Shown piece by piece: positions 8,504 to 36,924 of a stretch of DNA of 64,000 nt. The stretch's first letter is position 1. Every line of letters starts with the position of its first letter. A program made the position numbers and the translations under genes. Under the pieces are notes generated by a model. It ran no database searches. It saw only the letters and a program-made list of their open reading frames with translations, and was not told where the DNA came from. This stretch comes from Streptomyces sp. WMMC500 (GTDB lineage: Bacteria > Actinomycetota > Actinomycetes > Streptomycetales > Streptomycetaceae), in the NCBI RefSeq assembly GCF_027497195.1, contig NZ_CP114905.1:2280001-2344000 (forward strand). Reading direction: 5' to 3'.

Positions 8504-8917
8504 CAGGAAATTCTCCTCGTCTGCGCCCACGCCCGTGTGGCGTGGGCGGTGAGCGGTGGAGCACCCGCGCGGCAGGCTCGGGCCGGATGAGCGGCTGTAG
8601 GCCGGGCCGGTCTTCGATCGAAGCCACCGGGGTGCGCGCTCTCGCGTGCTCCGAAGGCCACTACCGAGGACCGGCGCCCGCTGTCGGCACAGGTCCGGCG
8701 GCTGCGGGCGGTTGCTCCCCGTATTCACTCTGTGCTGATGTCCTGCCGACCAGAGTACAAGTCACCCCGGCGGCATCTCGACGGCTGGCTGGCAACCGTT
8801 CGGTAAGGGTCCGTACGGACGGACCGGCCCGCCCCGGCGTCCGGACGGGACCGGAGCCACTGCGGGCATACGCCGAGGGAGCGGCTCCCGGTGCGGGGGC
8901 CGCTCCCTCGTGCGGCG
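8504..8917 (-). other. rpsO-pnp intergenic region
   Basis: About 410 bases without a gene. It holds the strong hairpin at 8875-8909 just after rpsO, the perfect palindrome GTCCGTACGGAC at 8809-8820, and the pnp ribosome-binding site. In Streptomyces this interval is known to carry a pnp promoter and an RNase III-processed hairpin; which of the elements here serve those roles cannot be told by eye. Confidence 0.6.
8875..8909 (-). terminator. rpsO 3' hairpin (terminator/processing site)
   Basis: GAGGGAGCGGC pairs with GCCGCTCCCTC (11 bp, 13-base loop), starting 9 bases past the rpsO stop. It likely terminates part of the rpsO transcripts and is the counterpart of the hairpin that RNase III cuts in other Streptomyces. 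Confidence 0.75.
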
Positions 8918-12832: not shown

Positions 12833-12860
12833 GCGCGCGGCGGCAAGGGGGATTGTTCGT

Positions 12861-15152
12861 ATGCACACGTTGACCGGCTCCGGCGGCCCGAACGGCGGCG
12901 CGACCGGTGGCGCGACGGGCGCCGCGGGCGGCACGACCGCCGGCGGCCCGCGGCAGGGCGTGGGCCCGCACCGGATCGTCGCGCCGCTCGGCCCGTACGC
13001 CCCGGAGGGCGGCCCCGGCGCCGACGGGCCGCAGTTCCACCTGGCGTTCAGCGAGCCGCTGGGCCGGGTCGTGGTGCTCATGACGCCGCCCGCCGCGCTC
13101 GCCGCCGACCCCGGCTTCCGGGTCAGGTTCGCCTCCGAGGCCGGTACCTCCGCGCGGCTGGCGGGACCGGCCGCCGCGCCGGTGGCCGGGGTGGCGCCGC
13201 AGGACGAGGAGCCGTGGGTGGCGTACGACTGCGCGCCCGCGCTGCCGCTGCCCGCGGCGCTGGCGGCGCACGGCGGGCCGCTGCCGGTGCCGTACGTCTG
13301 CCAGGTGGGGGTCTCGCTGGCCGCCGCGGTGCTGCAGGCGCACGCCCAGGGTCTGGTGTACGCGGGGCTGACGCCCGCCGCCGTGCTGCTGACGGCGGCC
13401 GGGCCGCGCCTCGTCGCGTACGGCGCGGTGCGCGCGGCGGCGCCGGGCGACGGCCCGCGTACCGCGGTGCCCGGGCTGCCGCCCGCGTGGCTGCCGCCCG
13501 AGCAGCACGCCGGCGGGGTGCCCCGGCCGCTGGGCGACATCTACGCGCTGGGCGTGGTGCTGGCGTACGCCGCCACCGGCGCCCACTCCCCCGACCCGGG
13601 CGCGGTGCCGGAGCCGCTGGCCGCGGTCCTCGCGGGCTGCCTCGCCCCGGACCCGGCACAGCGCCCCCGCGCGGACGCGCTGCTGCAACAGCTCCAGCAG
13701 GCGCAGCAGGCCCTGCCCGCGGAGCCGGGGCAGGAGCAGGTGCCCGGTGCCGTGGCGGCGGCGCTGGCCGCCCAGGTGCCGGCGCTGCCGGCGCAGGGCC
13801 CGCTCACGCCCCCGCCGGGCCCCGGCGCGCCGGGCGGGCCCGGTGGCCCGCCCCTCCCCGGGCAGACGCCGGACACGTCGGCCGGGGCCGGCCTCGGGGA
13901 GACCTCCGTGTCCCCGGCGCGCCCGGGCCGCCGCGCGCTGCTGCGCGGCCTCGCCTTCGGCGCCGCGGGCCTCGCGGTCGGCGGGGGCGGCGTCTACGCG
14001 TACCGCCGTGCGACGAAGGAGGATCCACCCGTCTACCGCACCACCCCCGCGAAGGGCGCCCCGCCCAAGCCGCTGTGGCAGTACCCGCTGCAGGGCCAGG
14101 AGGCCAGGGTGGTCAGCCTCATCGGCAGGATCGCCGTCGTGCAGACGATGGGCGCCCTCACCGCCGTGAACGTGCGCACCGGCAAGAAGGCGTGGGACTC
14201 CGACGTGTTCGCGGACGCACCGCTGATCGACCTCGGCCGGGGCGAGGCGCTCGTCACGGGGACTCTGAGCGGCATCGAAGTCGTCGAGCTGGCCGGCGGC
14301 AAGTCGAAGGGCCCCATCGAGGAATACTCGCTGAACAGCAAGCTGGCCCTCCAGGAGGCCGTCGGCGCCGCCGACGGGATCCTCTACTTCCTGGCCACGG
14401 TCGGTTCCGACCTGGAGAAGTTCGCCATGGTGGCGTACGACACCCGCAAGGGCGAGGAGGTGTGGAACAAGCCGCTGCCCGAGGGCTACGGGGACCTGAG
14501 CGACACTCCGCTCAGCGACGGCGAGAGGATGAAGATCCGCGGGCGCGAACTCCTCATCCCCAGCGCCCCCACCTCCGGCTTCGCCTTCACGTACCTCGCG
14601 CTCGACCGGCGCAGCGGCGACAAGGCGTGGGAGCAGAAGTTCGAGGACATCAAGGACTACGACGGTCCCGGCACCTTCGCGACCGACGCCGGGACGCTCG
14701 TCAGCCCGGACAACGAGGCCGACACGCTGCGGGGGTTCGAGATGCGCGGCGCCAAGAAGTTGTGGGAGCGCCCGACGAAGGAGCACTTCTTCAGTGAGCT
14801 GACCGATGCGCGCTCCCGCGTGCTGTACGGCACGCAGGGTGCCGCGGTGACGGCGCTGTCGGTACAGAACGGCAAGCCGGTGTGGCGTACCCCGGTCTAC
14901 TCCGGCGGCCGGTTCGACGTCACGGACGTCGTCCTCAGCGGCACCGGCCGGACCCTCTTCTACAGCAACGACGCCGAGGTACAGGCTTTCGACACCCGCG
15001 ACGGCGCGCCGCTGTGGCGGTTCGCGACGGTCAGCGAGGGCGGGTCTTCCTCCGACGACGGCCCCGGCGTCTCCGGCCGGGTGCTCGCCGCGGACGACGG
15101 CATCGCCCTCGTCCTGTCCAAGGACGCCCTCTACGCACTCCCGGTGGACTGA
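12861..15152 (+). CDS. Membrane pseudokinase with PQQ-type beta-propeller (2nd of 4)
   Basis: A 763-residue paralogue of the preceding gene, 28 bases downstream, ATG 12861 with a GGGGG ribosome-binding site. The N-terminus is glycine/threonine-rich, then a kinase-like fold in which HRD is replaced by VYAGLTP (about 165) and DFG by AYGAVRA (about 185); LPPEQHAGG and LGDIYALGVVLAYAATG remain. A proline-rich linker (about 290-340) leads to a twin-arginine helix (GRRALLRGLAF, about 355-378), then a propeller with NVRTGKKAWDS, RRSGDKAWEQ and DTRDGAPLWRF repeats. No catalytic residue set is present. It probably pairs with the active paralogues downstream. Confidence 0.88.
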   Translation: MHTLTGSGGPNGGATGGATGAAGGTTAGGPRQGVGPHRIVAPLGPYAPEGGPGADGPQFHLAFSEPLGRVVVLMTPPAALAADPGFRVRFASEAGTSARLAGPAAAPVAGVAPQDEEPWVAYDCAPALPLPAALAAHGGPLPVPYVCQVGVSLAAAVLQAHAQGLVYAGLTPAAVLLTAAGPRLVAYGAVRAAAPGDGPRTAVPGLPPAWLPPEQHAGGVPRPLGDIYALGVVLAYAATGAHSPDPGAVPEPLAAVLAGCLAPDPAQRPRADALLQQLQQAQQALPAEPGQEQVPGAVAAALAAQVPALPAQGPLTPPPGPGAPGGPGGPPLPGQTPDTSAGAGLGETSVSPARPGRRALLRGLAFGAAGLAVGGGGVYAYRRATKEDPPVYRTTPAKGAPPKPLWQYPLQGQEARVVSLIGRIAVVQTMGALTAVNVRTGKKAWDSDVFADAPLIDLGRGEALVTGTLSGIEVVELAGGKSKGPIEEYSLNSKLALQEAVGAADGILYFLATVGSDLEKFAMVAYDTRKGEEVWNKPLPEGYGDLSDTPLSDGERMKIRGRELLIPSAPTSGFAFTYLALDRRSGDKAWEQKFEDIKDYDGPGTFATDAGTLVSPDNEADTLRGFEMRGAKKLWERPTKEHFFSELTDARSRVLYGTQGAAVTALSVQNGKPVWRTPVYSGGRFDVTDVVLSGTGRTLFYSNDAEVQAFDTRDGAPLWRFATVSEGGSSSDDGPGVSGRVLAADDGIALVLSKDALYALPVD

Positions 15153-15156
15153 TCCC

Positions 15157-17397
15157 ATGGTTACGCCCCTCACCCACGACGACCCGCAGCAGTTGGGCCC
15201 GTACCGGCTCGTCTCCCGCCTCGGCAGCGGCGGCATGGGCACCGTCTACCTCGCCCGCTCCGCGGGCGGGCGCACCGTGGCGCTGAAGACCATGCACGCC
15301 GACCTCGTCAGCGGCGAGGCCGGCACCGCGGGCGCCGAGTTCCGCACCCGGTTCCGGCTGGAGACCGACGCCGCCCGCGTCATCGGCGACCGCTACGGCG
15401 CCGAGGTCGTCGACGCCGACCCGCTGGCCGAGACGCCGTGGCTGGCGACCGAGTACGTGCTCGGCCCGCCGCTGGACGAGGCGGTCGCGGTGTCCGGCCC
15501 GCTGCCCGAGACCACGACGCGGGCGCTCGGCGCCGCGCTCTGCGAGGCGCTGGGGCAGTTGCACCGCTCCGGCGTCGTCCACCGCGACCTGAAGCCGTCG
15601 AACATCCTGCTGACCTCGTCGGGGCCGAAGGTCATCGACTTCGGCATCGCCCGCGCGGCGGGCGACGACCACCTGACCCGTACCGGCACCGCGGCGGGCA
15701 CCCCCGCCTTCATGTCGCCCGAGCAGGCGTCCGGCGTCGAACACACCCCGGTCGGCGACGTGTTCGCGCTCGCGGGCGTGCTGGTCTTCGCCTGTACGGG
15801 CCACGGGCCCTTCGGCGGCGGGCAGGCCGCGGACCTGCTGTACCGGGTCCGCTACGGCGAGGCCGACCTGTCCGGCGTGCCCGCGGGGCTGCTGCCGCTG
15901 CTCCAGCGCTGCCTGGCCAAGGAGCCGGAGACGCGCCCCGGCACCGACGAACTGGCGGGGCTGCTCGCCGAGGGACTGCCGGGCGGCGCGGCGGACTTCG
16001 CCGACCATCTCCCGGACGCGCTGCACGCCGACATCCTGCGCCGCGCCGCCGTCGCCTGGCAGCCGCAGCCGCCCCGGCTGCCGTCGCCGGAGCAGGCCGC
16101 CATGGAGACCCAGTCGGGCGCGGCATCCGGTCCGTCGCGGCGCAAGGTGCTGGCGCTCGCGGGCGCGGGCGCCGTGGCGGTCGGCGGCGCGGGAGCCGGG
16201 GCGTGGGCGTTCCTCCGCGACGACGAGAAGGAGCCGGAGGCCAAGCCCGAGGCGAAGAAGCCGAAGGCGCCGAAGGAGCTGTGGACGCGCCCGGTCGTCG
16301 GCGGCGGCGGCGCGTTCAGCCTGGCCACCGGCCGCAACTACGTGCTGCTCCTCACCACGGCCGGCGGCGGGCAGTTCGTGGACGCGCGCAACGGGAAGCT
16401 GCGGGGGGTCAGCGAGTTCGTCTCCCCGTCCACCGGCATCATCGGCGACGACTCCGGGTTCTTCTCCCTCGCCAGCCGCAGCGTGTCGGGCGAGGGCACC
16501 CACGCGCTCTTCACCAACGACCCCGAGACGGGCGAGCAGGAGGAGGACGTCGTCCTCAACGGGGCGGACATCAAGGGAACGGCCATCGAGGCCGCCGAGA
16601 ACGGCATCGTGCTGATGCGGGCGACCGCCCGCTGGGTCACCCGGGTCTACCGCGACAAGAAGACGAAGGAACGCATCGTCGAGAAGACGCCGTGGGCCTC
16701 GCAGTTCGTGGCGGCGGACATGAAGACCGGGAAGCTGCTGTGGGGGTACGACAACAAGTCCCCCGACACCGGCCCCTCGTACGCCACCGCCCTGACGAAG
16801 AACGAGGCGCTCATCCGCGTCGAGTCCACCCTGACGTGCCTCGACGCCAGGACCGGCGAGGAGCGCTGGACCTGGAAGGCGCCGGAGGCGGACCGCGAGT
16901 CGCTCGCCGGGCTGCAGCAGTTCCCCACCGCCGCGGGCCACGTCCTCCTCGGCCTGCGCGACCTGACCGCGCTGAAGCTGTCCGACGGCGAGGTGGGCTG
17001 GTCCCTCGGCAAGGACCGCGAGGCCCGCGCCGCCCTCGGCCCCGACACCCGCCTGTACGGCACCCCCGCGGTCAAGGACGGCAAGGTCTACGTCGTCGAG
17101 AACGGCAACGGCCTCATCGCCATCGACGGCGCCAGCGGCGAGGTCGAGTGGGAGGCCAAGGCCGACTGGGCCGGGCCGCAGGCGTTCATCGTCGCGCCCG
17201 TGGTCGGCAAGAAGTACGCGTACGTGGGCACCGGCGGGCGCGACTGGGTGCGGGCGGTCGACCTTGAGGAGCACCGGACGGCCTGGTCGTACCGAGGGCC
17301 CGAGGACAACGAGCGCCCCATGGTCCTCGAACAGGACGACGCGAAGGTCGTCCTCGTCGTCACCGCAGCCGAAGTGCGCGGGCTCCCCCTTCAGTAG
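15157..17397 (+). CDS. Membrane Ser/Thr protein kinase with PQQ-type beta-propeller (3rd of 4)
   Basis: This 746-residue protein starts only 4 bases after the previous stop, so translation is likely coupled. The kinase core is complete: GSGGMGTVY glycine loop (about 25-33), VALKTMH lysine (about 44), HRDLKPSN (about 142), DFGIA (about 161), and APE-equivalent SPEQASG. After the kinase comes a basic SRRKVLALAG helix (about 327-350), a lysine/proline/glutamate-rich stalk (KPEAKKPKAPKE) and a propeller with DARTGEERWTW and DGASGEVEWEAK repeats. It should phosphorylate Ser/Thr in the cytoplasm with an extracytoplasmic propeller as sensor, as in other bacterial PQQ kinases; targets are unknown. 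Confidence 0.92.
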   Translation: MVTPLTHDDPQQLGPYRLVSRLGSGGMGTVYLARSAGGRTVALKTMHADLVSGEAGTAGAEFRTRFRLETDAARVIGDRYGAEVVDADPLAETPWLATEYVLGPPLDEAVAVSGPLPETTTRALGAALCEALGQLHRSGVVHRDLKPSNILLTSSGPKVIDFGIARAAGDDHLTRTGTAAGTPAFMSPEQASGVEHTPVGDVFALAGVLVFACTGHGPFGGGQAADLLYRVRYGEADLSGVPAGLLPLLQRCLAKEPETRPGTDELAGLLAEGLPGGAADFADHLPDALHADILRRAAVAWQPQPPRLPSPEQAAMETQSGAASGPSRRKVLALAGAGAVAVGGAGAGAWAFLRDDEKEPEAKPEAKKPKAPKELWTRPVVGGGGAFSLATGRNYVLLLTTAGGGQFVDARNGKLRGVSEFVSPSTGIIGDDSGFFSLASRSVSGEGTHALFTNDPETGEQEEDVVLNGADIKGTAIEAAENGIVLMRATARWVTRVYRDKKTKERIVEKTPWASQFVAADMKTGKLLWGYDNKSPDTGPSYATALTKNEALIRVESTLTCLDARTGEERWTWKAPEADRESLAGLQQFPTAAGHVLLGLRDLTALKLSDGEVGWSLGKDREARAALGPDTRLYGTPAVKDGKVYVVENGNGLIAIDGASGEVEWEAKADWAGPQAFIVAPVVGKKYAYVGTGGRDWVRAVDLEEHRTAWSYRGPEDNERPMVLEQDDAKVVLVVTAAEVRGLPLQ

Positions 17398-17423
17398 GAA
17401 CTTCCACCAGGAGCGGCACGTCC

Positions 17424-19496
17424 ATGAAACCCCTCGGCACCGGAGACCCGCTGCGCCTCGGCCCGTACCGCCTCATCGGCGTGCTCGGCGCGGGCGGCAT
17501 GGGCAAGGTGTACCTCGGCCGGGACTCCTCCGGGCGCCCCGCCGCGATCAAGGTGCTGCGGCCGGAGCTGGCCCACCAGTCGAACCTCGCGCAGCGCTTC
17601 GTGCGCGAGGCGCACGCCGCGCAGGCCGTGCAGAGCCCCGGCGTGGCGCGGGTGCTCGGCGCCGAGACGGAGGGCGGCCGGCCGTGGATCGCCTGCGAGT
17701 TCCTCGCCGGGCCGACCCTCGCCGAGGCCGTCGAGCGCTACGGGCCGCTGGACGGCACGGCGCTGCGCGCGGTCGGCGCGGCGCTGGCGAGCACGCTCAC
17801 CGACATCCACGCGGCCGGCCTCGTCCACCGCGACGTCAAGCCGCCCAACATCGTGCTGACCGCGACCGGGCCGCGCATCATCGACTTCGGCATCGCCCGC
17901 CCCGAGCACGGCCTGACGCTCACCAGCACCGGCGAGGCCCCCGTCACCCCGGGCTACGGGCCGCCGGAGCAGGTGCTCGGGCAGCGCGTGGGCCCGCCGG
18001 CGGACGTCTTCGCGCTGGGCGCCGTGCTCACGCTGGCGGCGACGGGGCAGACGGCGTACCAGGGCAGCCATGTGGCCGCCGTGCAGTACGAAGTGGTGCA
18101 CGGGGAGCCGCGGCTCGAAGGGCTGCCGCCCGACCTGTACCCGCTGATCGCCCCCTGCCTGGCCAAGGACCCCGCGTACCGCCCCACTCCGCCGCAGATC
18201 GCCGCCGCCCTCGCCCCGCCGCCCGGCGCCGAGGCCGTCTGGCAGCGGGGCCCGCTCGCCGAGGACATCGCGGGCCGCGAGCACGAGGCGGCCCGCCTCG
18301 CCGCGCTCCCCGCGGCCGGCGACACCCAGGTGCCGGGCCCTTCGCGGCGGCGGCTGCTGGTCGCGCTCGGCACCGGGGGCGCGGTGGTGGCGGCGAGCGC
18401 GGGCACGGCCGCCTGGTGGTGGCTGGGCAAGGACGACGGCGGCACGACCGCGGCGCCCCAGCGCGACCCGTGGGCGGCGCAGCCGCTGAAGGGCTACAGC
18501 GCGAACAACGCCCCCGCGGCTCTCTGGGGCCCGATAAGCGGGCTCAACTCCGATGCGCCGCTGCTGCTCCCGCTGCGCGAGACGCTGGTCGTCGCGATGG
18601 CCGACGGCACCATCGCGGGCCTGGACATCCGCACCGGCAAGCAGAAGTGGCGCCAGGAGGACGCCGCTGCGGCGGCCCGCGCGGCGGCGCTCGACGAGAA
18701 CACGTTCGCCGCCGCGGACGCCGACGGCGCCCTGTACGGGCTGCGCGGGCGGGACCGGCGCGAGCAGTGGTCGGCGCCGGACGCCCGGGCGGAGGTCGTG
18801 CTCGCGGGCGACGCGAACGCGGCGTACGTGACGACGAAGGACGGCGAGCTGCGCGCGGTCGGCACCGGGGGCAGGGAGCGGTGGACGGTCGAGCTGCCGG
18901 TCCAGTCGTCCGTCAGCAAGCCGGCGTGGGCCACGACGGCCGACGGCATGCTCGTGCTCTCCGGCTCGGACGGCAAGCTCGCGGTGGTCGACACCGAGGA
19001 CGGCAAGACGGTGTGGGACACCCCGAAGCGCAGCTCGTACGCGATGCCGTGCGCGGTCGGCGGGGGCTTCGTGTACGCGGGCGGGGACGGGCTGACGGCG
19101 TACGCGCTGAAGGGCGACGGCGAGCCGGAGTGGAACGAGAAGCCGAAGGGCGAGTACATCTGGAGCGCGCCTGCGCTGCACGACGGCCTGCTCTACGCCG
19201 TGAACGACGCGAAGCTCGTCGTGCGGAACGCGAAGACGCGGGAGACCGAGTGGACCGACGAGGCCCTGGCGGTCGCGCTCAAGTACCCGCCGGTGATCCA
19301 GGGGAACTCGCTGTGGGCCGGGACGACTTCGAACTTCGACCCCGACGCCCTGAAGGTCTACGACATCGCCAAGGGCAGGGTGGCGTGGGAGGATCGCCGC
19401 ACGTCGCGTGAGCGGGACGACTGGACCATGGCCGCGGCGGACAACAGGGTGTTCGTCCTCTACACGGGGTCGCTGACCGCAAACCCGGTGTTCTGA
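17424..19496 (+). CDS. Membrane Ser/Thr protein kinase with PQQ-type beta-propeller (4th of 4)
   Basis: A 690-residue active-type kinase: GAGGMGKVYLG (about 23-33), AAIKVLRPEL lysine (about 42), HRDVKPPN (about 134), DFGIARPE (about 153), TPGYGPPEQ. The helix at about 308-330 again follows SRRRLL, and is followed by a propeller with DIRTGKQKWRQ, DTEDGKTVWDT and DIAKGRVAWED repeats, ending NPVF. ATG 17424 has AGGAG about 10 bases upstream, 26 bases after the third gene, so all four form one operon. A copy of its last codons recurs 62 bases downstream (19547-19558). Confidence 0.92.
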   Translation: MKPLGTGDPLRLGPYRLIGVLGAGGMGKVYLGRDSSGRPAAIKVLRPELAHQSNLAQRFVREAHAAQAVQSPGVARVLGAETEGGRPWIACEFLAGPTLAEAVERYGPLDGTALRAVGAALASTLTDIHAAGLVHRDVKPPNIVLTATGPRIIDFGIARPEHGLTLTSTGEAPVTPGYGPPEQVLGQRVGPPADVFALGAVLTLAATGQTAYQGSHVAAVQYEVVHGEPRLEGLPPDLYPLIAPCLAKDPAYRPTPPQIAAALAPPPGAEAVWQRGPLAEDIAGREHEAARLAALPAAGDTQVPGPSRRRLLVALGTGGAVVAASAGTAAWWWLGKDDGGTTAAPQRDPWAAQPLKGYSANNAPAALWGPISGLNSDAPLLLPLRETLVVAMADGTIAGLDIRTGKQKWRQEDAAAAARAAALDENTFAAADADGALYGLRGRDRREQWSAPDARAEVVLAGDANAAYVTTKDGELRAVGTGGRERWTVELPVQSSVSKPAWATTADGMLVLSGSDGKLAVVDTEDGKTVWDTPKRSSYAMPCAVGGGFVYAGGDGLTAYALKGDGEPEWNEKPKGEYIWSAPALHDGLLYAVNDAKLVVRNAKTRETEWTDEALAVALKYPPVIQGNSLWAGTTSNFDPDALKVYDIAKGRVAWEDRRTSRERDDWTMAAADNRVFVLYTGSLTANPVF

Positions 19497-19626: not shown

Positions 19627-19695
19627 GGGAGAGGCACACGGCACCGGGCAGGCGCCGGCACGACCGCCGTGGTGCGAGGGGATACGGGAGGCACA

Positions 19696-22600
19696 GTGAG
19701 CAGCGATCGGGACGAGAACGGCGCGGGCCGGACCAGCCCCGATGTCGAGCGGTCCGGTACGGAGGCGGAGGGCACGGGCGAGTTCACCACCGGCCCGGCG
19801 CCCGCGGCCTGGTACACGCAGGGGGTGCCGGCCCCGGCCCCCAGACAGGACGAGGAGGCGGGCACCGGCTCGTCCCACGCCGGCTCGGCGATGCCCCCGT
19901 TGCCCAACGGCTTCACCGCCGCCCACGCGCAGGCCCCCGGGCCGGTGCCGGAGTCGATGACGCCGCCGCCGTTCCTGCTGACGCTGCCGGACGAGCCGTC
20001 GCCGGCTCCGGAGCCTCCCGCGACGCCGGAGACGGCACCGGAGGCCGCGGAGCCCGCCGAGGACCCGGACGTGGACGACCACCAGGACGACGACGACCAG
20101 GACGAGGCGTACGCGGCCGAGGACGACTCCCCGCCGCTGACGGCGGCGACGGACCCGGGCGCGGTGGCGTTCGCCGCGCTGCCGGTGGCCCCGGAGGTGC
20201 CGGAGGCCGCGGCGGACGAGACGGACGACGAGCCGGCGGCGGAGGCAGAGGAGTTCACGTCGTCCCCGGTGAGCGCGCCGAGTTGGTACGGAGGCGGCGC
20301 CTCCGCGACGACGGCGGGCACCGACGAGACGGACGACCGGGAGACGGCGGCGTACGACGAGCAGGACTCCGACTCCGCCGGTTCTGAGCCGGACGAGGAG
20401 CCCGCCGGCGCGGACGACGACCCGGACACCGGCGCGGCGTGGCCCGCCGCCGCCGAGGAGTTCACCGGCGCGGAGACCACCGACGCGTCCGGCGACGAGG
20501 ACTCCGGCGCCTTCCCCGGGCCGGCGGCCGAGGCGGACGAGGACGACAGGGCCGACGAGACGTGGCGCAGCACCGGGCCGGATTCGGGGTGGCCCTTCCC
20601 GCCCGCGAGCACGTCCGCTGACAGGGCTGACGACGACGAACCGGCCGACGACGAACCGGCCGCGGCCACCGCGGACGCCGACGAGACCGGCGAGGCCCCC
20701 GCGGCAGACTCCGGGGCGTCCGGCACCGACTGGCACAGCCCCGCCGCGCCGGCCGCGGACGCGAGCGAGGGGTCCGACGCGGGAACGGGCCGGCCGTTCA
20801 CGGCCGCCGCGGAGGCGGACGGCGACGAGGCCGCCGCGGCGGCGCCGGACCCGGCCGGTGCCCCGGCCGTCGACGGCTGGCGGAGCAGCGTGCCCGAGGC
20901 CGACACCGACGAGCCCGCGGAGTCCGGGTCCGCGTGGCCCGCCTTCGCCGGCGGCCCGGCGACCGCGGACGGCGGGGCCGACGCTCCCACTGACGGCGCC
21001 GAGGCGCCGGAGGCGGGGGCCGCCTGGCCGGCTCCGCCCGGGGCGCCGCCCGCCGCGGACCCGGGTGCCGAAGCCCCGTCCGCGGCCGGGGAATCCGCCT
21101 TCCCCGCACCGCAGTTCGCGCCGCCCCCGCGGCCGGACGCCGACGAGGCGGGTACGCCCGCCCCGTACCGCGACGACGCCACCCGGACGCTGACCCCGCT
21201 CGTCGCCCACGCCCCGCCCGGCGCGGCGCCGGCGGCACAGGAGCAGGACCAGGACCAGGACGACGACGAGGCGCCGGCCGACCCGGACAAGGGCGACGTG
21301 GTGAGCGGCGCGACCATGCGCTTCTCGCCCGCGTCGCTGCGCGCGCAGGCCGCGGAGATCCAGGACCGTACGCCCGCGGACGACGAGCCGAACGACGCCG
21401 TGCCCGCCGCCGCCGCCGAGGTGCAGGACCGGGTGCCGGCGGACGCCGCGCCCGCCCGCGACGACGAGCCGCAGGACGCGCCGCCGCAGGCCAGCCCGTA
21501 CGTGACGGACCGCGCGCCCGCCGGTGCGAACCCGTGGGCCCCCGCGCCCGCCCCCGGCGACTCCGCCTCGCCGACGGCGCTGCCGCCGCTTCCCCCGCAG
21601 TTCCCGGCCGCCGAGCCGCAGCGCCCCGCGGCGGCGGACCTGCCGTCCGGCCCGCCGCCCGCCGCGGGCGCACCCTGGCAGTCGCCCACCCCGCAGCCCG
21701 TACCCGAGCAGTCCGCACCGCAGCCCCCCGCGGCTCCCCCGGCGGCGCCCTCCGCCCCGCCGGCCGTCCCGCCGCCCGGGCAGCCGTACCCGGCCCAGCC
21801 CGCTCCGGGCGCCGTCCCACCCGGCACCCCGGTGCCCGGCGCCGCCCCGGAGTCCGCCGGCGCCACGCCCGCGGCGTCCGCGCCGCCGGCCGGCGGCCCC
21901 GGCCCGGCGGCCCCGGCCTCGCCGCCGCCGGCCACCCCGCCCGGCGCCCCCGGCACGCACTCCGCGCCCGGCAGCCGGCTCCCGGCCCCGCACACCCCGC
22001 CCGGCGCCGGCGAGGCGCCCCGCTCCGGGCCTGCCGCCGAGCCGCCGCCCGGCTGGACCGTGGCGTCGCCCGCCGGCGTGCCCGTACCCCCGGCCGGCCA
22101 GCAGCCCGACTCCCGCGCCCCGCAGGGCGGTTACGGCTGGCCCCAGCCGCCCGGCGCGCAGCCCGGACAGCCCGGACAGCACAGCCAGATGGGCCAGCAG
22201 GGCCAACCCGGACAACCGGGACAGCAGCCCGGACAGCCCGGCGCCTACCCGGGCCCGCCCGGCCAGCCCCCGCAGCAGGCCCAGCCCGGCCACCCCGGCC
22301 AGCAGCCTCCCGGCCTGCCGCCCGCGGGCGGCTCCCAGCCCGGCGCCCCCGGCCAGGGCGCCCTCTCCCCCGCCACGTCCCCGGCGCCCCCGGCACAGCC
22401 CGGCCAGCCCGCCCAGCCCGGCGGCGACCCGCGGTCCGGCGGCTGGCCCGAGGTCACGCCCGAGCAGCGCCGCCAGCCGGTGCACAACGCCCCGCTGGGC
22501 TACACCGCCGCCGTCGAGCTGTCCTCCGAGCAACTGCTGCACGACAAGCACAAGCCGCAGCGCAAGTCGGAGCGCGGCGGCCTGTCCCGGTTCAAGCTCG

Positions 22601-23601
22601 GCGGCAAGGCGGCCGAGGAGGAGCGGCAGCGCAAGATCGCCCTCGTCCGCACGCCGGTGCTGTCCTGCTACCGCATCGCCGTGATCTCCCTCAAGGGCGG
22701 CGTCGGTAAGACGACGACCACCACCGCGCTCGGCGCGACCCTCGCCGCCGAGCGGCAGGACAAGGTCATCGCGATCGACGCCAACCCGGACGCCGGCACG
22801 CTGGGCCGCCGGGTGCGCCGCGAGACCGGCGCGACGATCCGCGACCTGGTGACGGCGATCCCGTACCTGAACAGCTACATGGACATCCGCCGGTTCACCT
22901 CGCAGGCGCCCTCCGGCCTGGAGATCCTCGCCAACGACGTCGATCCGGCGGTCTCCACGACGTTCAACGACGAGGACTACCGCCGCGTCATAGACGTGCT
23001 GGGCAAGCAGTATCCGGTGATCCTCACCGACTCGGGCACGGGCCTGCTCTACAGCGCCATGCGCGGCGTGCTCGACCTCGCCGACCAGCTCATCGTCGTG
23101 GCCACGCCGTCCGTCGACGGCGCGTCCAGCGCGAGCACCACGCTGGACTGGCTGCACGCCCACGGCTACGCGGACCTGGTGTCGCGGAGCATCACGGTCA
23201 TCTCGGGCGTCCGCGAGACGGCCAAGATGATCAAGATCGACGACATCGTCAACCACTTCAAGCAGCGCACCCGCGCGGTGCAGGTGATCCCCTTCGACGA
23301 GCACCTGTCGGCCGGTGCCGAGCTGGACCTGTCGATGATGCGGCCGAAGACCAAGGAGGCGTACTTCAACCTCGCCGCGCTCGTCGCGGAGGACTTCACC
23401 CGCGCCCAGCAGGCGCAGGGCCTGTGGACCGGCGAGGGCGGCCAGCAGCCGCCGCACGCGATGCCGCCGCTGCCCGGCCAGTCCGGCGGCGCCGGGGGAT
23501 ACGGCGCGGGCGGGGGTTACCCGGGCGGCGGCGGCTATCCGGGTGGCGCTCCCGGCACGGGCCCGTCGCAGGCGCAGTCGGGGCCGAGCCCGTACGGGTG
23601 A
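19696..23601 (+). CDS. EspI-like protein: proline/alanine-rich N-terminus with MinD-like ATPase
   Basis: The 1301-residue protein starts at GTG 19696 with GGGAGG 6 bases upstream. Residues 1 to about 940 are low-complexity: first acidic and Ala/Asp/Glu-rich ([13 protein letters not shown]), then Pro/Ala/Gly-rich with GQPGQ repeats around 820-900. Residues about 990-1240 are a MinD/ParA-type ATPase: [13 protein letters not shown] is the deviant Walker [15 protein letters not shown] follows, and [14 protein letters not shown] is the Walker B region. A Gly/Pro tail ends the protein. This architecture matches EspI, the ESX (type VII) accessory ATPase, and a large protein of the Streptomyces ESX locus. 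Here no EsxA/B, EccB-E or mycosin gene is nearby. Confidence 0.85.
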
Positions 23602-29929: not shown

Positions 29930-30442
29930 TCAGTTCCAGTCGCAACCGATGCCGTCGGCGTCCCTGTCGAGCCGGTGCGGGTCGCTGTCGCCGACCCAGA
30001 CCGGGCCGGCGAGATCAGGGCAGTCGACATCGGGGCCGGGCGGCGGGCCGTCCGGGTAGCCGGAGGTGTTGGCGTCCCCCGCCCGGTCGTCCGAGCCCGG
30101 GTCGGCCCCGGAGTCGCCGCCGCCGTCCGGGGGCGGCTCCGCGGTGACGGTCTCCGTCTCGGTGACCTCGACCTCGACCTTCTCGGTCCTGGTGACGGTG
30201 GGCGCGGGCTCCGGCGTCGCGGTGACCGTCTCGGTGGACTCGGCGGTGGCGGTGACGGTCGGCGCCGCTCCCGCGGCGTCCGACTCGTCGCCGCCGCCGA
30301 CGGCGGCTCCGATGCCGAAGACGACGACCGCGCCGGCCACGCCGATCGCTGTCCGGATCCGGCGGCTCCGCCGGGACGGGCCCGGGTCTGCCGCGGGTTG
30401 GCGGGGCCCCTCGGGGTGGAGCGGGTATGGCGAGTTACTCAT
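29930..30442 (-). CDS. Membrane-anchored Excalibur calcium-binding domain protein
   Basis: The 170-residue protein starts at ATG 30442 with GGGGG 3 bases upstream. A cytoplasmic N-terminus rich in Pro/Arg is followed by one helix at about 31-47 (IGVAGAVVVFGIGAAVGGG), a Thr/Val/Glu-rich stalk of TVTATAEST/TVTRTEKVEVEV repeats, and a C-terminal Excalibur motif DRDADGIGCDWN with a paired cysteine (DVDCPDL). Excalibur domains are extracellular and bind calcium in an EF-hand-like loop. The gene is convergent with the ABC operon. An upstream in-frame ATG at 30517 is less likely. Function beyond surface localisation is unknown. Confidence 0.85.
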   Translation of the reverse strand: MSNSPYPLHPEGPRQPAADPGPSRRSRRIRTAIGVAGAVVVFGIGAAVGGGDESDAAGAAPTVTATAESTETVTATPEPAPTVTRTEKVEVEVTETETVTAEPPPDGGGDSGADPGSDDRAGDANTSGYPDGPPPGPDVDCPDLAGPVWVGDSDPHRLDRDADGIGCDWN

Positions 30443-30494
30443 GATCCCCCCTGCAAATGCGTGCAGGCGGGGACAGTAGCGGCGTTCTACGCGT

Positions 30495-30536
30495 GTCCGG
30501 CAGGGGCCGGACGGCACCGTCCGGCCCCTGCCGGAC
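30495..30536 (-). terminator. Terminator of ribF
   Basis: GTCCGGCAGGGGCCGGAC and its exact complement form an 18-bp stem with a 6-base loop, 13 bases past the ribF stop. Confidence 0.8.
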
Positions 30537-30548
30537 GGCCCTCTCCGG

Positions 30549-31493
30549 TCACCGGGCCGCGGTCAGGTCGCGGCTGGCGTCGACGTCGCGGCGCATCTGG
30601 GCCTTCAGGTCCTCGACCGTGTCGAAGCGCTCCTGGCCGCGGACGAAGGCGAGGAAGTCGACGGCCACGTGCAGCCCGTACAGGTCGAGGTCGTCGCGGT
30701 CGAGCGCGTACGCCTCGACCGTCCGCTCCGTGCCGTCGAACTGCGGGTTCGTGCCCACCGAGATCGCCGCCGGCATGCGCTCGCCGACGGCGTCCAGCCA
30801 GCCCGCGTACACCCCGTCCGCGGGGATCGCCGTGTGCGGCAGCGTCTCCAGGTTGGCCGTCGGGAAGCCCAGTTCCCGGCCGCGCTGCGCGCCCCGGACG
30901 ACGATGCCCTCGACCCGGTGCGGCCGGCCCAGCACCTCCGCCGCCCCCGCGACGTCGCCGTCGGCGATCAGCCGGCGCGCGAGCGTGGAGGAGAACGGCG
31001 CGCCGTCGTCCGCGGCGCCGCTGACCTGGAGGTCGAGGACGTCCACGGTGTAGTCGTACGTCTCCCCGAGCGAGGAGAGGAACGCGACGTCGCCGGCGGC
31101 CCTGTGGCCGAAGCGGAAGTTGGGACCCTCCACCACCGCCCGCGCGTGCAACTTGTCGACCAGCACCTTCACCACGAAGTCCGCGGGCGACAGCTTCGAG
31201 AACTCCGCGGTGAACGGCAGGATCAGCAGCGCGTCCACGCCGAGGTCCGCCACCAGCTCCGCCCGCCGGTGGTGCGCGGTCAGCAGCGGGGGGTGGCTGC
31301 CGGGCCGGACGACCTCGCTGGGGTGCGGGTCGAAGGTCACGACGACCGACGCGACGCCCAGCTCCCGGGCGCGCTCCACCGTCCGGCCGATGATGAGCTG
31401 GTGGCCGCGGTGTACGCCGTCGAACGAGCCGATGGTGACGACGCTGCGCCCCCACCCCTCGGGGATGTCCTCCAAGCCACGCCAGCGCTGCAC
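30549..31493 (-). CDS. ribF: Bifunctional riboflavin kinase/FAD synthetase
   Basis: RibF phosphorylates riboflavin to FMN and adenylates FMN to FAD. The 314 residues show the nucleotidyltransferase motif GSFDGVHRGHQ (about 20-30), and the C-terminal kinase domain with RGRELGFPTANLE, GVYAGWLD, NPQFDGTERTVEAY and LDLYGLHVAVDFLAFVRGQERF. GTG 31493 (reads VQRWRGLEDIP) is chosen because GAGGAG lies 10 bases upstream and orthologues begin here. It is downstream of the trypsin-NTPase gene on the same strand. Confidence 0.95.
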   Translation of the reverse strand: MQRWRGLEDIPEGWGRSVVTIGSFDGVHRGHQLIIGRTVERARELGVASVVVTFDPHPSEVVRPGSHPPLLTAHHRRAELVADLGVDALLILPFTAEFSKLSPADFVVKVLVDKLHARAVVEGPNFRFGHRAAGDVAFLSSLGETYDYTVDVLDLQVSGAADDGAPFSSTLARRLIADGDVAGAAEVLGRPHRVEGIVVRGAQRGRELGFPTANLETLPHTAIPADGVYAGWLDAVGERMPAAISVGTNPQFDGTERTVEAYALDRDDLDLYGLHVAVDFLAFVRGQERFDTVEDLKAQMRRDVDASRDLTAAR

Positions 31494-31675
31494 TGTGCCC
31501 GCTCCTCGGTCCGCCGTTGTCGTGCCTGCCCGTACAGGACTGTCGGAAGACAAGACTGCCATGCTCGCGGCCCGGCGCAGGACCCGGGCGCCGGTCGGCC
31601 CGGCGGGACGGCCGGTTTCGTGGCCCGGCGGCCGGTACCGGCGCCGCCGTCCGCCGGACGCGCGCGCCCGCGCGG

Positions 31676-34600
31676 TCAGGACGCGCGCCGCGGGTGCGAC
31701 GTGCCGACGGCGAGCTGCGCGCTCGGCCCGAGCAGCACCGCCCACGCGTCCCGGTCCGCGGCCAGCCAGCCGCGCAGTTGGTCCGCGAACGCGGGCAGCT
31801 CGGCGGCGAGCGCCACCAGCCGCCGGTCGAAGACCGCCGCCCCCTCCGGCGTACGGGACAGCAGCAGCCCGATGCCCTGGACGAGGTCCCGCGTGCGGCA
31901 CTCCGGGCGCCCGGCCGTGGTGCGGCCGACCGCGGCGAGCAGCGCGTCGAGGACGGCGGGTTCGCGCTCGCGGTCAAGGAGTACGCCGAGCAGCTCGCGG
32001 CGCAGGGGGCGGGACGTGCGGGTCCCCGGGGCCGCGACGACCGGCGCGAGCGCACGGCGCACCACCGGCGAGTGCGCGGTCAGCAACTCGACGGCGAGCG
32101 GGAAGAGCACGGCGCGCTCGCTCTGCCCGTGCTCCAGCCGCCGGTCGACGAAGTCGGCGGCGGCCGCGGCGCCTTCGGGGTGGTGGTCGACGTACTCGCG
32201 GACGAGGTCCGCGGCGCTCCGGGCGAGCGCCGGGGTGCAGGGCCGTACGCGAGCGAGGGTGCGCAGCACGTCGGCGGCTCCCGTCCCGGGGCGGTGGAGG
32301 AGGTCCCGGAAGGCGTCGAGCACGGGCCCGGGGTGGGTGGCGAGGGCGGGGGCGAAGTCCGCGGGGGCGAGGTGCGGGTCGTCCGCGGCGAGGAGGGCCA
32401 GGGCGCGGTCGAGGTGCCCGGCGCGGCTGTGGGGGTCGCGGAGGAGCACGGCGAGGGCGGGGCCGTGGAGGGCGTCGTCGTCGGCGTGCGCGAGCAGCGC
32501 CTGCGCGGCGTAGCGGAGCAGGGCGCGGTCGGCGGCGCCGCGCGCGTGCCGGGCGGTCGCCGGCGCGTACGCGGCGGCGGCTACGCGGCGCTCCGCGCGG
32601 GGGTCGCGCGCCCAGCGGTCCACGGCGCGGCAGAGGCCGGACGGCTCGTCCTCGGCGAGCTCGGCGAGGAGTTCGGCGGCGCGCGGGTGGGCGGAGGCGA
32701 CGAGGGCCTCGGCGAGGTCGTCGACGGCGCGGGCGCGGTGGGTGTGCAGGAGCGCCTGGGCGGCGTCGGCGACGGTGGCGCCCCCGTGGGGCAGGGCGCG
32801 GTCGTCGTCGAACCAGCCGACGAGGAGCGGCTGCACGGCGGTCGGGTCGGCCTGGAGGAGCTCCCCCGCGGCGGTCAGGTACGCGGACGGGCGGCGGGTG
32901 TCCGCGGGCAGGAGGAGGCGCAGCAGGTCGAGGCGGTCGGCGAGCGGGAGGGGCAGCCGGGTGAAGAACGCGGGCCCGAAGGGGGCGAGGACGCCGGGGA
33001 GTTGGGCGGTGCCGCCGAAGCGGGCGGCATGGCCGGCGAGGCAGGTGGCGAGGCGCCGGAGCACGTGCCGGTACGGGCGGGCGTCGGGCACGCGCAGCAG
33101 GGTCTCGCCGAGCAGGTGGGCGCCCCACCAGCCGCCGTCGGCGGCGGGGGGCGTGCCGGCCCCCGGCTCCTCCGGGAACGCCGAGCGGCGGCTGACCGCG
33201 GCGTCGGCGGCGCCCAGCAGGTCCGTCAGCCGGTGCCCCAGCTCCGTACGCCCGTGCCGCCGCTCCAGCAGGAGAAGCGCCTCGACGCACGCCCCGATCC
33301 GGTGCGGCGCCACCGGCAGCGCGCGGCGCCCGGCGCCGCCGTCCGCGGAGGACGGCAGGTCGCCGGGGCGCCAGCGCTCGGAGGTCCGGTGGACGAGCAC
33401 GGCGAGGGCGGCGTCGACGTCGAGATGCGCGCCCTGCAGCCAGTCGGCGAACTCCTCGTGCGCGAAACGGTAACCGGCACCCGCGGGCACCAAGAGCCCT
33501 TCGGCGAGCACCGCGGAGGCCCAGCCGGTGAGCCCGGCGAGGTGATCCGGCACCCGCCACGGAAACAGTTCCTCGAACGCGGCCCGCTCCAACTCCCCCT
33601 GGCCGGGGCCCAGACACCGCCGCGCCGCCTCGTGCACCTGCCCGGCGACGTACGCGGCGAGCCGGCCGACGGCGGCCCCGCGCGGGCCGGCGGGGCCGGC
33701 GCCGTGGGCAAGGCGCTCGGCGACGCGCAGGCTGACGAGCGCGAGATACGCCTCGAACACCTCCCACCGCCGCGGCCCCGGGCCGACCGCGACCGCCGCG
33801 ATCCGGCGCGGCGGGCCGACACCACCGCCCGGGCCCGCGCCCGGCGCGGCGGAACCCGGTCCCGCCCCCGCGGGCGTCCCCGGGGAGCGAGCCCCCGGTA
33901 CCGCGGACACCGTCGCGACGCCCGCATCCGGCAACTCCGCCCCGCCACTGCCCGATCCGTCCCCCTCCGCGCCCTCACCCGGCAGTGGCGCCGGGGACAC
34001 AGGCCCGGCGCCCGCCCCCGGCGAGTCCGCGCCGGCGCCGATCGATGGACCTCCCGCCGCGGCTCCACCCGGCAGCGGTGCCGCGGACCCCGTGCCGGCG
34101 CTCACGCCCGGCGCCCGCACCGCGGCCGGCGGTGCAGCCGCCGCCGGTGCGGCCGGCCCCCTCCCACCCTGCGCGACGGCGTGGTCCGCAGGCGCCCCCA
34201 GACCGCGCCCCGCCCCCCGCGCCGCACCCCGGTATGCCGCCGCCGCGGCCCCGCCCGGCTGCGCCGGGCCCGCGACCCCGTACCCGTGCGACCCGGCGCC
34301 CCGCGGCAGCGCCGCGCGGACCTCCGCCAGCAGCCGCAGCGTCAGCGGGTGGCGGGCGTCCGCGGGCCGCAGGGCCGTGGCGGGGATGCCGTAGCGGGTG
34401 CGGGCCTCGCCCGCCTCCGCCGGAGTGAAGTCCCCCAGCGGCACGCACGGCGGCAGCGTCTCCGGGCACGCCTGCCCGGCGTGCAGCATCTCCGCCGGGA
34501 ACAGCGCGCCCGCCCGCTCCCAGTACTCCGGCCGGCACGCCAGCACCAGCCGTACGCCGTGCTCGCCCAGCCACTCCGCCGTGTGCGCCGTCCACTCCCC

Positions 34601-35854
34601 CAGCGCCTGCGCCAGCACCGGCGGCATCTCCTCCGGGCAGTCGAGCAGGACGAGCAACGGCCGCCCCGCGACGTGCGCTTGCGCGGCGACCGCCTCCGGC
34701 GTGGCCGTCGCCGGGTCGCCCGCGCAGCCCGCGGCGCCCGCCGCCGCGGTCACCACCCCCGCGGCGTCGCGCAGCGCGCGGGCCACGGCATCCCGTACGC
34801 CCGCGTCCGCGACCTTCAGGTCCGCGCCGCGCAGGCACACCGACGGCGCGGGTGCCGCGCCGGCGGCGCGGCGGGCCGCGAGCCGGGCGAGTTCGGTGGA
34901 CCGCCCGGTGCCGGGATGGCCGACGAGCGCGAGGACGTGCGCGGCACCGCCGAAGAACCGACCGAACTCCGCCGCCACCGCCCGCCGCTCGACGGGCTCC
35001 CCCCACACCGGCGCGGCCAGGCGTCCGGCTCCCGCGGCGCCGGCCGCGAAGGCGACGGGCCCACCCTCCGGCCCGACTCCCGTGGCCGCGACCGTCCCGC
35101 CCCGCGCACCACCGCCCGCGGCCCAGGCTCCCCCCGTCCCCGCCGCACCACCGTCCGCGACCGCACCGGCCCCCGCCGCCCCCAGCTCCAGCGCCCCCGC
35201 CAGGTTCAGGTCCCGCCCGTACGCCGCCACCTGCGCCCCGCCCCGGTCCAGCGCGTCCCCCAGGGTGCCCGCCGCGTCGTCCGCCGCCCCGCGCAGCGGC
35301 ACCGCGAGCGCCACCCCGCCGCGGTCCGCGTGCAGCGCGGTGCCGACCACGGCGACCACCGCCCCGCTCGCCGCGTCCAGCACCGGCGCGCCGCTCGCCT
35401 CACCGCCCACGCGCAGCGACTCGTGCGGGGCGAGGGCGAGTTGCCGCACCCCCTCGACGAGGTGGTAGCGATCGGTCGCGGTGTACGTGGCCGTGGCCGC
35501 GGCCACCACCCGCCCCGGCACCCGTGCCCGCGGCAGCGCGACGGCCACCTCCGCGCCGTCGTCGGGCACCGCGGCGGCGAGCGCGAACGGCCGGGCGCCG
35601 GCCAGCCCCCGGGCCCGTACGACCGCGAGGTCCGCGCCCGGCAGCGATGTGACGTCCGGGGACTCGATCAGCCACGTGTGCCCGTCGCCCGGCGCGTACA
35701 GCACCAGCCGGGTGAGCCCGTCGACGGCCTCGTGGCTGGTGAGCACGGTGCCCTCGGCGTCGACGACGAATCCGGTGCCCCGCGGGCGGCCGGCGAGGTC
35801 GCGGATGCGTACGACGGTGCCGGGCGCGCGCGGCGGCGGCGATGAATGCGGCAA
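31676..35854 (-). CDS. Trypsin-like protease fused to a STAND/AAA-type P-loop NTPase and helical repeats
   Basis: A 1392-residue protein in three parts. Residues about 10-190: chymotrypsin-fold protease, with GFVVDAEGTVLTSHEAV (His), PGADLAVVRA (Asp) and GGEASGAPVLD (Ser), so the triad is complete although the usual GNSGGP is GEASGAP. About 305-520: P-loop NTPase with Walker A GHPGTGRST (about 311), Walker B PLLVLLDCPEEM (about 400) and RLVLACRPEYW (sensor-like, about 435). A 170-residue low-complexity Pro/Gly/Ala linker follows, then about 700 residues of Ala/Leu/Arg-rich helices resembling HEAT/TPR-type repeats. TTG 35854 has GGGGAGG 7 bases upstream. The architecture is that of NTPase-gated sensor-effector proteins. 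It sits between truB and ribF. Substrate and trigger are unknown. Confidence 0.85.
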   Translation of the reverse strand: MPHSSPPPRAPGTVVRIRDLAGRPRGTGFVVDAEGTVLTSHEAVDGLTRLVLYAPGDGHTWLIESPDVTSLPGADLAVVRARGLAGARPFALAAAVPDDGAEVAVALPRARVPGRVVAAATATYTATDRYHLVEGVRQLALAPHESLRVGGEASGAPVLDAASGAVVAVVGTALHADRGGVALAVPLRGAADDAAGTLGDALDRGGAQVAAYGRDLNLAGALELGAAGAGAVADGGAAGTGGAWAAGGGARGGTVAATGVGPEGGPVAFAAGAAGAGRLAAPVWGEPVERRAVAAEFGRFFGGAAHVLALVGHPGTGRSTELARLAARRAAGAAPAPSVCLRGADLKVADAGVRDAVARALRDAAGVVTAAAGAAGCAGDPATATPEAVAAQAHVAGRPLLVLLDCPEEMPPVLAQALGEWTAHTAEWLGEHGVRLVLACRPEYWERAGALFPAEMLHAGQACPETLPPCVPLGDFTPAEAGEARTRYGIPATALRPADARHPLTLRLLAEVRAALPRGAGSHGYGVAGPAQPGGAAAAAYRGAARGAGRGLGAPADHAVAQGGRGPAAPAAAAPPAAVRAPGVSAGTGSAAPLPGGAAAGGPSIGAGADSPGAGAGPVSPAPLPGEGAEGDGSGSGGAELPDAGVATVSAVPGARSPGTPAGAGPGSAAPGAGPGGGVGPPRRIAAVAVGPGPRRWEVFEAYLALVSLRVAERLAHGAGPAGPRGAAVGRLAAYVAGQVHEAARRCLGPGQGELERAAFEELFPWRVPDHLAGLTGWASAVLAEGLLVPAGAGYRFAHEEFADWLQGAHLDVDAALAVLVHRTSERWRPGDLPSSADGGAGRRALPVAPHRIGACVEALLLLERRHGRTELGHRLTDLLGAADAAVSRRSAFPEEPGAGTPPAADGGWWGAHLLGETLLRVPDARPYRHVLRRLATCLAGHAARFGGTAQLPGVLAPFGPAFFTRLPLPLADRLDLLRLLLPADTRRPSAYLTAAGELLQADPTAVQPLLVGWFDDDRALPHGGATVADAAQALLHTHRARAVDDLAEALVASAHPRAAELLAELAEDEPSGLCRAVDRWARDPRAERRVAAAAYAPATARHARGAADRALLRYAAQALLAHADDDALHGPALAVLLRDPHSRAGHLDRALALLAADDPHLAPADFAPALATHPGPVLDAFRDLLHRPGTGAADVLRTLARVRPCTPALARSAADLVREYVDHHPEGAAAAADFVDRRLEHGQSERAVLFPLAVELLTAHSPVVRRALAPVVAAPGTRTSRPLRRELLGVLLDREREPAVLDALLAAVGRTTAGRPECRTRDLVQGIGLLLSRTPEGAAVFDRRLVALAAELPAFADQLRGWLAADRDAWAVLLGPSAQLAVGTSHPRRAS

Positions 35855-36021
35855 CGGCCAGCCTCCCCGGGTGAGCCCCAGGGCATGGCTTGCCACCGGC
35901 TGATCACGGGAAACGAGGAGTGGCGCGATGCGCCCCCCTCGACACCCGTTCGGCGTAATCCCGGCCGCCGCAGGCACCCGCCGGGGCGACCGGAACGGCG
36001 GTCACGTCCCCGGCGCAACGG

Positions 36022-36924
36022 CTACGCGAACACCGCCAGCGCCTTCGCCCGCCCCCCGGCCGGCTCCACCAGCGCCAGAAAGCGCCCGTCCGGCCCGAAC
36101 ACCGCGTGCGGCCCCTCGGCCAGCCCCGCCGGCACCGCCACCCGCACCCCGTGCGACAGCAGCCGCGCCTGCTCGGCGTCCACGTCCCAGCGCGGGAAGG
36201 CCGCCGCCGCGGCGTCGCCGATCGGCAGCACGTCGAGCCGCTCCGCCAACTGCTCCAGCGTCCGCGCCCCGTCCAGCCCGTACGGGCCGACGCGGGTGCG
36301 CCGCAGGGCGGTGAGATGGCCGCCGACGCCCAGCCCGGCGCCGAGGTCGCGGGCGAGGGCGCGGATGTACGTGCCGGAGGAGCACGCCACCGTCACGTCC
36401 AGGTCCGTCACCCGCGTGCCGTCCCCGGCCGTCGCCGCCCGCACGCCGTGCAGGACGAACGTGCTCACGGTCACCGGCCGCGCCGGCAGCTCCACGGCCT
36501 CGCCGTCCAGCACGCGCTTGTACGACCGCTTGCCGTCCACCTTGATCGCGCTGACGGCCGACGGCACCTGCATGATGTCGCCGGTCAGCCCGGCGATGCC
36601 GGCGTCGACCGCGCCGGGCGGCAGGTCACCCGCGTCGGCGGTGGCCGTCACGTCGCCCTCGGCGTCGTCGGTCAGCGTCGTCTGGCCGAGCCGGATCGTG
36701 GCCCGGTACTCCTTGTCGGTGAGCGCGAGGTGGCCCAGCAGCCGGGTCGCCTTCTCCACCCCGACGACGAGCACTCCCGTCGCCATCGGATCCAGCGTCC
36801 CGGCGTGGCCGACGCGCCGGGTACCGGCGAGCCGGCGCAGCCGGCCGACGACGTCGTGCGAGGTCAGCCCGGCCGGCTTGTCGACGATGACGAGGCCGTC
36901 CGGGCCGGTCGACTTCCCCCTCAT
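36022..36924 (-). CDS. truB: tRNA pseudouridine55 synthase
   Basis: TruB isomerises U55 in the T-loop of tRNAs. The 300-residue protein has GRVGHAGTLDPMATGVL-type catalytic motif (VGHAGTLDPMATG, about 38-50, with the essential Asp), DKEYRA, MQVPSAVSAIKVDGKRSY and SSGTYIRALARDLG. ATG 36924 overlaps the rbfA stop as ATGA, so the two are coupled. It belongs to the translation-factor run that starts with rimP. Confidence 0.96.
   Translation of the reverse strand: MRGKSTGPDGLVIVDKPAGLTSHDVVGRLRRLAGTRRVGHAGTLDPMATGVLVVGVEKATRLLGHLALTDKEYRATIRLGQTTLTDDAEGDVTATADAGDLPPGAVDAGIAGLTGDIMQVPSAVSAIKVDGKRSYKRVLDGEAVELPARPVTVSTFVLHGVRAATAGDGTRVTDLDVTVACSSGTYIRALARDLGAGLGVGGHLTALRRTRVGPYGLDGARTLEQLAERLDVLPIGDAAAAAFPRWDVDAEQARLLSHGVRVAVPAGLAEGPHAVFGPDGRFLALVEPAGGRAKALAVFA

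Follow-up and report, generated by a model that had tools for sequence, protein, structure and literature searches.

A predicted NLR-like protein with a degenerate HtrA-fold domain and an arginine P-loop at the truB–ribF locus of Streptomyces

Bacterial NLR-like proteins have been studied chiefly as anti-phage systems. The NACHT NLRs NLRP3, NLRP9, NOD2 and NLRC4 and the bNACHT proteins share an N-terminal domain, a module of NACHT, winged-helix (WHD) and HD2 parts, and a C-terminal superstructure. Features listed for NLRs include a Walker B motif of the form hhhhD[GAS]hDE, for which EE variants are also given, a sensor 1 Arg and a winged-helix His (WH-His; PMC2323615). Here we describe a gene of Streptomyces sp. 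WMMC500, located between truB and ribF at 31676..35854 (minus strand) of a 64,000-nucleotide stretch of contig NZ_CP114905.1 (hereafter the window). Its 1392-residue product shares with the NACHT NLRs and bNACHT the tripartite plan, the NACHT Walker B, sensor 1 Arg, P-motif and WH-His. Unlike them, it has an Arg for the Walker A Lys and a putative HtrA-fold pseudoprotease at its N-terminus, occupies a fixed housekeeping locus and shows no signs of mobility.

Other systems offer precedents for single parts of the protein. MamO, an HtrA-type pseudoprotease of magnetotactic bacteria, likewise has an HtrA fold with a degenerate active site and is described with a threonine in its triad (PMC4794232); of the 207 distinct orthologs of the present protein, 58 also have Thr where the catalytic Ser would stand. 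Unlike the domain described here, which is fused to a NACHT module and has Glu at the His position, MamO is presented as a magnetosome protein in its own right that carries a transporter domain (PMC4794232). The vWA-MoxR ternary systems are reported to include inactive trypsin domains and altered STAND (iSTAND) modules (Kaur et al., 2020, PMC7159879; PMC8195603), and the likeness lies in the occurrence of both in large multi-domain proteins. In contrast, trypsin-fold and NACHT parts here form one chain, the nucleotide-site residues besides the Lys are invariant, and a Pfam scan of 17 neighbouring frames (10433-40894) found no MoxR or vWA gene, though one kinase among them gave a sub-cut-off TCAD9 match (E 3e-4). 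The N-terminal fold is shared with the HtrA/Deg and MarP (Rv3671c) serine proteases, but the catalytic triad is not conserved, and Pfam scans of the full protein and of the N-terminal domain alone gave no PDZ match.

Architecture and conserved residues

The N-terminal domain (about residues 10-199; 35258..35827, minus strand, as for all parts of the gene below) has the trypsin/HtrA fold and, when searched alone, was detected as trypsin-like (PF13365, E 2.2e-9). A preliminary description of this DNA had credited it with an intact chymotrypsin-type triad, which in the present numbering can only mean His41, Asp75 and Ser154. Asp75 (35630..35632) and Ser154 (35393..35395) are correctly placed in the catalytic Asp and Ser columns, but the catalytic-His column is occupied by Glu42, with His41 one residue early (His41-Glu42, 35729..35734). 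All five listed alignments to HtrA relatives in the PDB, representing three proteins (HhoA in three constructs, Deg1 and MucD), run ungapped through TSHEAVDG and place the catalytic His on Glu42; the secondary structure predicted for the window protein is concordant, with residues 41-43 modelled as a short helix straight after a strand. As a control, 18 Trypsin_2 matches of the same genome were aligned. The 17 others all read Thr-x-x-His and share a single His column, in which only the window protein has Glu.

Among the 207 distinct orthologs, Glu42 is found in 205, His41 in 201 and Asp75 in 116, while the serine column holds Ala in 97, Ser in 45 and other residues in 7, besides the 58 with Thr. 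At 90% identity (134 rows) Glu42 is present in 132 and Ser154 in 26, and on the protein tree (219 rows) the serine column has undergone at least 6 changes between Ser and non-Ser. On the PDB alignments, the same-genome control and the ortholog counts, an intact catalytic triad is rejected at the level of sequence alignment. Judged by its residues, the domain has an HtrA fold but is not a protease, a front end disarmed by two or more changes in most orthologs.

The nucleotide-binding domain (residues 286-520; 34295..34999) is of NACHT type. Its Walker A motif, GHPGTGRS (residues 312-319; 34898..34921), keeps the glycines of the canonical GxxxxGK(T/S), but Arg318 replaces the Lys. Across orthologs the motif reads GxPGxGR(S/T), with Arg in 207/207 and in 134/134 at 90% identity, and because the Lys is not present we call the protein NACHT-like and do not count it among the canonical NACHT proteins, although it has most of their marks. 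The Walker B motif LLVLLDCPEE (residues 400-409; 34628..34657) follows the NACHT pattern, with a tiny residue after Asp405 (206/207 orthologs have G, A, C or S at position 406, and one has Asp) and an acidic pair at +3. G315, G317, D405, E408, E409 and P503 are each found in 207/207, Arg441 of sensor 1 (LVLACR, residues 436-441; 34532..34549) in 198/207 and winged-helix H799 in 202/207; the P-motif (P503) and the WH-His were recognised by visual inspection, on the basis of motif and position.

Structure prediction for an ortholog gave an NLR-like fold that contains a NACHT-WHD-HD2 module. In sequence-profile searches, the full window protein gave no Pfam match above the cut-off and none to Pfam NACHT at E<=1. 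The NACHT profile matched 19 of 38 orthologs (a set without the window protein) at E<=1, the best at 2.7e-8; L002, the only ortholog of this test shown in full, scored 15.2 bits against a cut-off of 26.7. NCBIfam matches to the window protein all fell far below cut-off, those to ortholog alignment A3 carried mostly generic P-loop names, and a profile search of the PDB with the NTPase part found no NACHT protein.

A Pro/Ala/Gly-rich low-complexity insert (residues 521-695; 33770..34294) lies between the NACHT and winged-helix parts and is mostly missing in orthologs, alignment column occupancy being 0.03-0.24 (bins 529 to 696). Low-complexity linkers are the most variable stretches of the protein, and seemingly most of the variation in homolog length (1111 to 1773 residues among the 120 matches listed) comes from them. 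The ortholog model places a winged-helix and HD2-like part at about residues 696-985 (32900..33769), with the sequence YRFAHEEFADW and with W805 in 207/207, and an all-helical C-terminal part at about residues 986-1380 (31715..32899), for which Foldseek returned weak matches to CAND1 and importin beta. Motifs and predicted architecture speak for a switch that is gated by nucleotide and has a helical receptor at its C-terminal end.

The preliminary description is partly borne out. The 1392-residue frame is open, truB lies upstream and ribF downstream, a trypsin-like domain, the P-loop NTPase with its Walker B and a long helical part are there, and the predicted ortholog structure agrees with an N-terminal domain, an NTPase switch and a helical sensor-like part. 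Its Walker A proves non-canonical, and its intact triad does not stand.

The 219 ortholog rows comprise the window protein, 119 database proteins (the best 119 of 2276 homologs, which lean towards close relatives), 61 of 68 loci from named genomes and 38 of 40 family loci, the latter hand-picked rather than random (20 from other genera, 20 from the same genus). Of these rows, 207 are distinct in core columns and are the basis of the counts quoted; 134 are distinct at 90% identity. Excluded from the alignments were L031, L034, L044, L049, L066, L067 and L068 of the 68 loci (split frames or contig ends), L100 and L113 of the family loci (split frames), and P0002 as a duplicate of the window protein. 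At all of these excluded loci except L044, the match to the ortholog is spread over two or more reading frames, through assembly errors or in decaying genes. Three pairs of loci are identical (L003/L086, L057/L121 and L065/L124). Alignment A1 contains 90 orthologs, A2 the window protein with 52 loci out of 69 proposed (17 were omitted, 11 of them as overlong) and A3 38 of 43 proposed.

Locus conservation and inheritance

The gene's position is fixed and its inheritance vertical. Upstream of the gene, all 68 loci of named genomes have truB and 67 have infB, a contig end accounting for the exception; downstream, 65 have ribF and the other three reach a contig end. Both truB and ribF flank the gene in 40/40 family loci. 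Combining the two sets leaves 105 distinct loci, of which all 105 have truB upstream and 102 have ribF downstream, the other three being contig ends. The gap between ortholog and ribF has a median of 119 bases (61 loci). In Actinacidiphila guanduensis (L053 14240-18700), about 4.5 kb with a PPDK_N/PEP-utilizer gene lie between the two. Protein distances track those of four neighbouring genes (Mantel r 0.717 for 103 records and 0.720 for 101 distinct ones; 0/499 permutations each).

The gene was matched in 65 of 81 genomes of the genus; across the family, 99 of 121 genomes matched, representing 9 genera out of 17. Beyond the family, eight genomes from the same order gave no match (0/8). The class search matched 14 of 148 genomes, of which 10 are the own genome and genus and four are weak (E about 1e-4); two of these four were read and look beta-lactamase-like by eye, so that we regard them as chance matches and reject them as orthologs outside the family, the others being G276 and G231. 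At most 22, 14 and 12 candidates per genome were scored in the genus, family and class searches, respectively, so misses are possible in these counts. Of the 16 genus genomes without a match, 13 carry ribF immediately after truB, two break off at the edge of a contig and one has no truB match. On a midpoint-rooted neighbour tree of 121 records (three of 124, L067, L081 and L082, were omitted) the 13 empty sites fall into 10 separate clades. Shuffled presence labels gave 12.5 changes on average and never fewer than 10, and absence therefore shows hardly any clustering. A single ancient gain in the family followed by repeated loss is the likely history.

The coding sequence, delimited by its open frame, codon composition and orthologs, runs from a TTG start at 35854 to 31676, stop included. 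Guanine plus cytosine (GC) fractions by codon position in the enclosing frame are 0.86/0.62/0.93, typical of genes in this genome, and a GGGGAGG ribosome-binding-like site (35862..35868, minus strand) stands 7 bases ahead of the start. On the same strand, truB occupies 36022..36924 (TruB_N, E 6.5e-44), with RbfA, DUF503 and IF-2 genes further upstream, and ribF (FAD_syn and Flavokinase) occupies 30549..31493, its GTG start at 31493 having been picked from sequence. A scan of 30400-36500 found no consensus promoters or terminators, and an Rfam scan gave no match at the gene. Within its own genome the sole other match covers 83 residues (E 0.001) of an ordinary Trypsin_2 domain. We take SCO5710 to be a locus tag of this gene; a search of literature listings, with subscription papers and preprints outside its scope, found no publication on it and returned unrelated reviews and a paper on a pseudo-caspase.

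Elsewhere in the window, an Actino-pnp RNA, a known cis-regulatory RNA family, lies at 8606-8675 (minus strand), at the upstream end of a minus-strand frame (6269-8728) that, judged from the family's name, is probably pnp. A 1310-residue frame of up to 82% GC at 19669-23601 (plus strand) carries a C-terminal ParA/MinD-like ATPase domain (CbiA, E 2e-10).

Surveillance, immunity or scaffold

We tentatively favour a surveillance or regulatory role for a bacterial NLR-like protein in which an HtrA/trypsin-fold domain that lacks the canonical triad is joined to a NACHT-type switch and to a C-terminus made of alpha helices. The basis is the predicted fold, the motifs, loss of the canonical triad, the fixed locus, vertical inheritance and repeated clean absence. 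The protein probably serves as an internal sensor or as a scaffold and not as a killer that cleaves proteins, and its most likely setting is internal surveillance or regulation in the mycelial cell, as an accessory rather than an essential component. A part in regulating the cell itself or in watching for stress is favoured by the constant locus, by vertical descent and by the lack of a match in the phage collection, whereas the gene's dispensability and its faster evolution leave room for an immune role.

Lys-to-Arg changes in P-loops often keep ATP binding and can slow hydrolysis, as in RecA K72R and Rad51 K133R. The helical C-terminus might keep the protein closed until a ligand is met, upon which the NACHT module would bind ATP and change state or oligomerise. 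The fixed Arg P-loop may slow hydrolysis, and a long-lived switch state could follow from this. The pseudoprotease would then use its former substrate groove to hold a partner, either a peptide or a protein, recruiting rather than cutting, for which MamO (PMC4794232) and the inactive trypsin domains of the vWA-MoxR systems (PMC7159879) are precedents.

Several points weigh against a surveillance role. Even a model of high confidence is a prediction, and the full-length one depicts an ortholog rather than the window protein; the tree behind the losses was built from four short genes, midpoint-rooted, with some weak supports. His41, Asp75 and Ser154 are all present in 16/207 orthologs, the window protein and close relatives among them, so by sequence alone some residual chemistry is possible. 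The protein also changes faster than its neighbours (identity 0.57-0.60 versus 0.77-0.92), which, like repeated loss, would suit an immune gene as well.

That immune role is the main rival, although we think it unlikely. The helical part would sense a phage or host cue, the NACHT module oligomerise and the pseudoprotease recruit a separate effector, so that the infected cell is stopped. The tripartite plan is the same as that described for bNACHT proteins (PMC12169576), and the gene is dispensable, missing in 10 separate clades, and evolves faster than its neighbours. Against this stand its place at truB–ribF in the loci read and its vertical inheritance. PADLOC gave no hit for the gene itself and, for the 10 neighbours scanned, nothing beyond one weak hit and matches of a generic kinase type. 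A search of a phage collection found no match to the protein, and a plasmid search only one partial match of 90 residues. A mobile or defence-island gene was rejected on these grounds, and the conflict system proposed in the preliminary description is not supported. The plasmid match (63.5% identity; NZ_CP081497.1 1449963-1450247) comes from Streptomyces sp. BHT-5-2, where it lies on a secondary replicon of 2.8 Mb; no gene is annotated beneath it, and it is possibly a remnant. In the window, 10433-19496 (plus strand) holds four tandem genes with PQQ/BamB-type propeller repeats, with Ser/Thr kinase domains that are clear in 15157-17397 and 17424-19496 and weak in 10433-12832; the PD-T4-6 hits that PADLOC gave in this stretch seem to be generic matches to kinases.

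Evolutionary rates also bear on the immune role. The ratio of nonsynonymous to synonymous substitution (dN/dS) against the ortholog L002 was 0.37 for the whole protein, 0.32 for the pseudoprotease, 0.62 for the NACHT part, 0.15 for the winged-helix part and 0.36 for the repeats (truB 0.14, ribF 0.38); against L001 the values were 0.51, 0.59, 0.55, 0.17 and 0.43 (truB 0.21, ribF 0.21). The winged-helix part (residues 696-870) is lowest within the protein. Because the three parts have similar mean pairwise identities (N-terminal 0.57, NTPase 0.59, C-terminal 0.60), the presumed sensor is no hotspot, and a hypervariable sensor was rejected. Universal one-to-one conservation, which the preliminary description had named as a finding that would speak against a conflict system, holds incompletely, given the 16 of 81 genus genomes without a match, 13 of them with an empty truB–ribF site.

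A further proposal, to which we give little credence, is a family-wide vertical NLR that is no mobile immune module. The Arg P-loop would make a slow or one-way switch, and the pseudoprotease, with near-invariant Glu at the His position, would be a peptide-reading adaptor coupled through the locus to ribosome maturation and translation state. More doubtful still is a nucleotide-independent scaffold, in which Arg318 ended switching and left a static platform. The remaining site residues, invariant in 207/207, make a dead nucleotide site unlikely, and Lys-to-Arg changes of the RecA and Rad51 kind often retain ATP binding. In favour of a static platform are the Lys-to-Arg change in every ortholog and the report that NLRP3 K232A cuts hydrolysis three-fold and abolishes ASC specks (PMC9633759). 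An active, NTPase-gated serine protease effector of a cell-death system, as first suggested for this DNA, is very improbable: the window protein and close relatives retain Asp75, Ser154 and a His beside the catalytic position, but the His column is Glu in nearly all orthologs, Ser is kept in a minority and 191/207 lack even the H-D-S set. Of that earlier interpretation, the three-part architecture survives and the proteolytic effector does not.

This NLR-like protein has stayed at one chromosomal site through much of the Streptomyces family. It offers a natural test of what NLR architecture does away from defence islands, of adaptors of the pseudoprotease kind within STAND proteins and of the ability of an Arg P-loop to drive a NACHT switch, and the natural relatives without the gene ease comparison.

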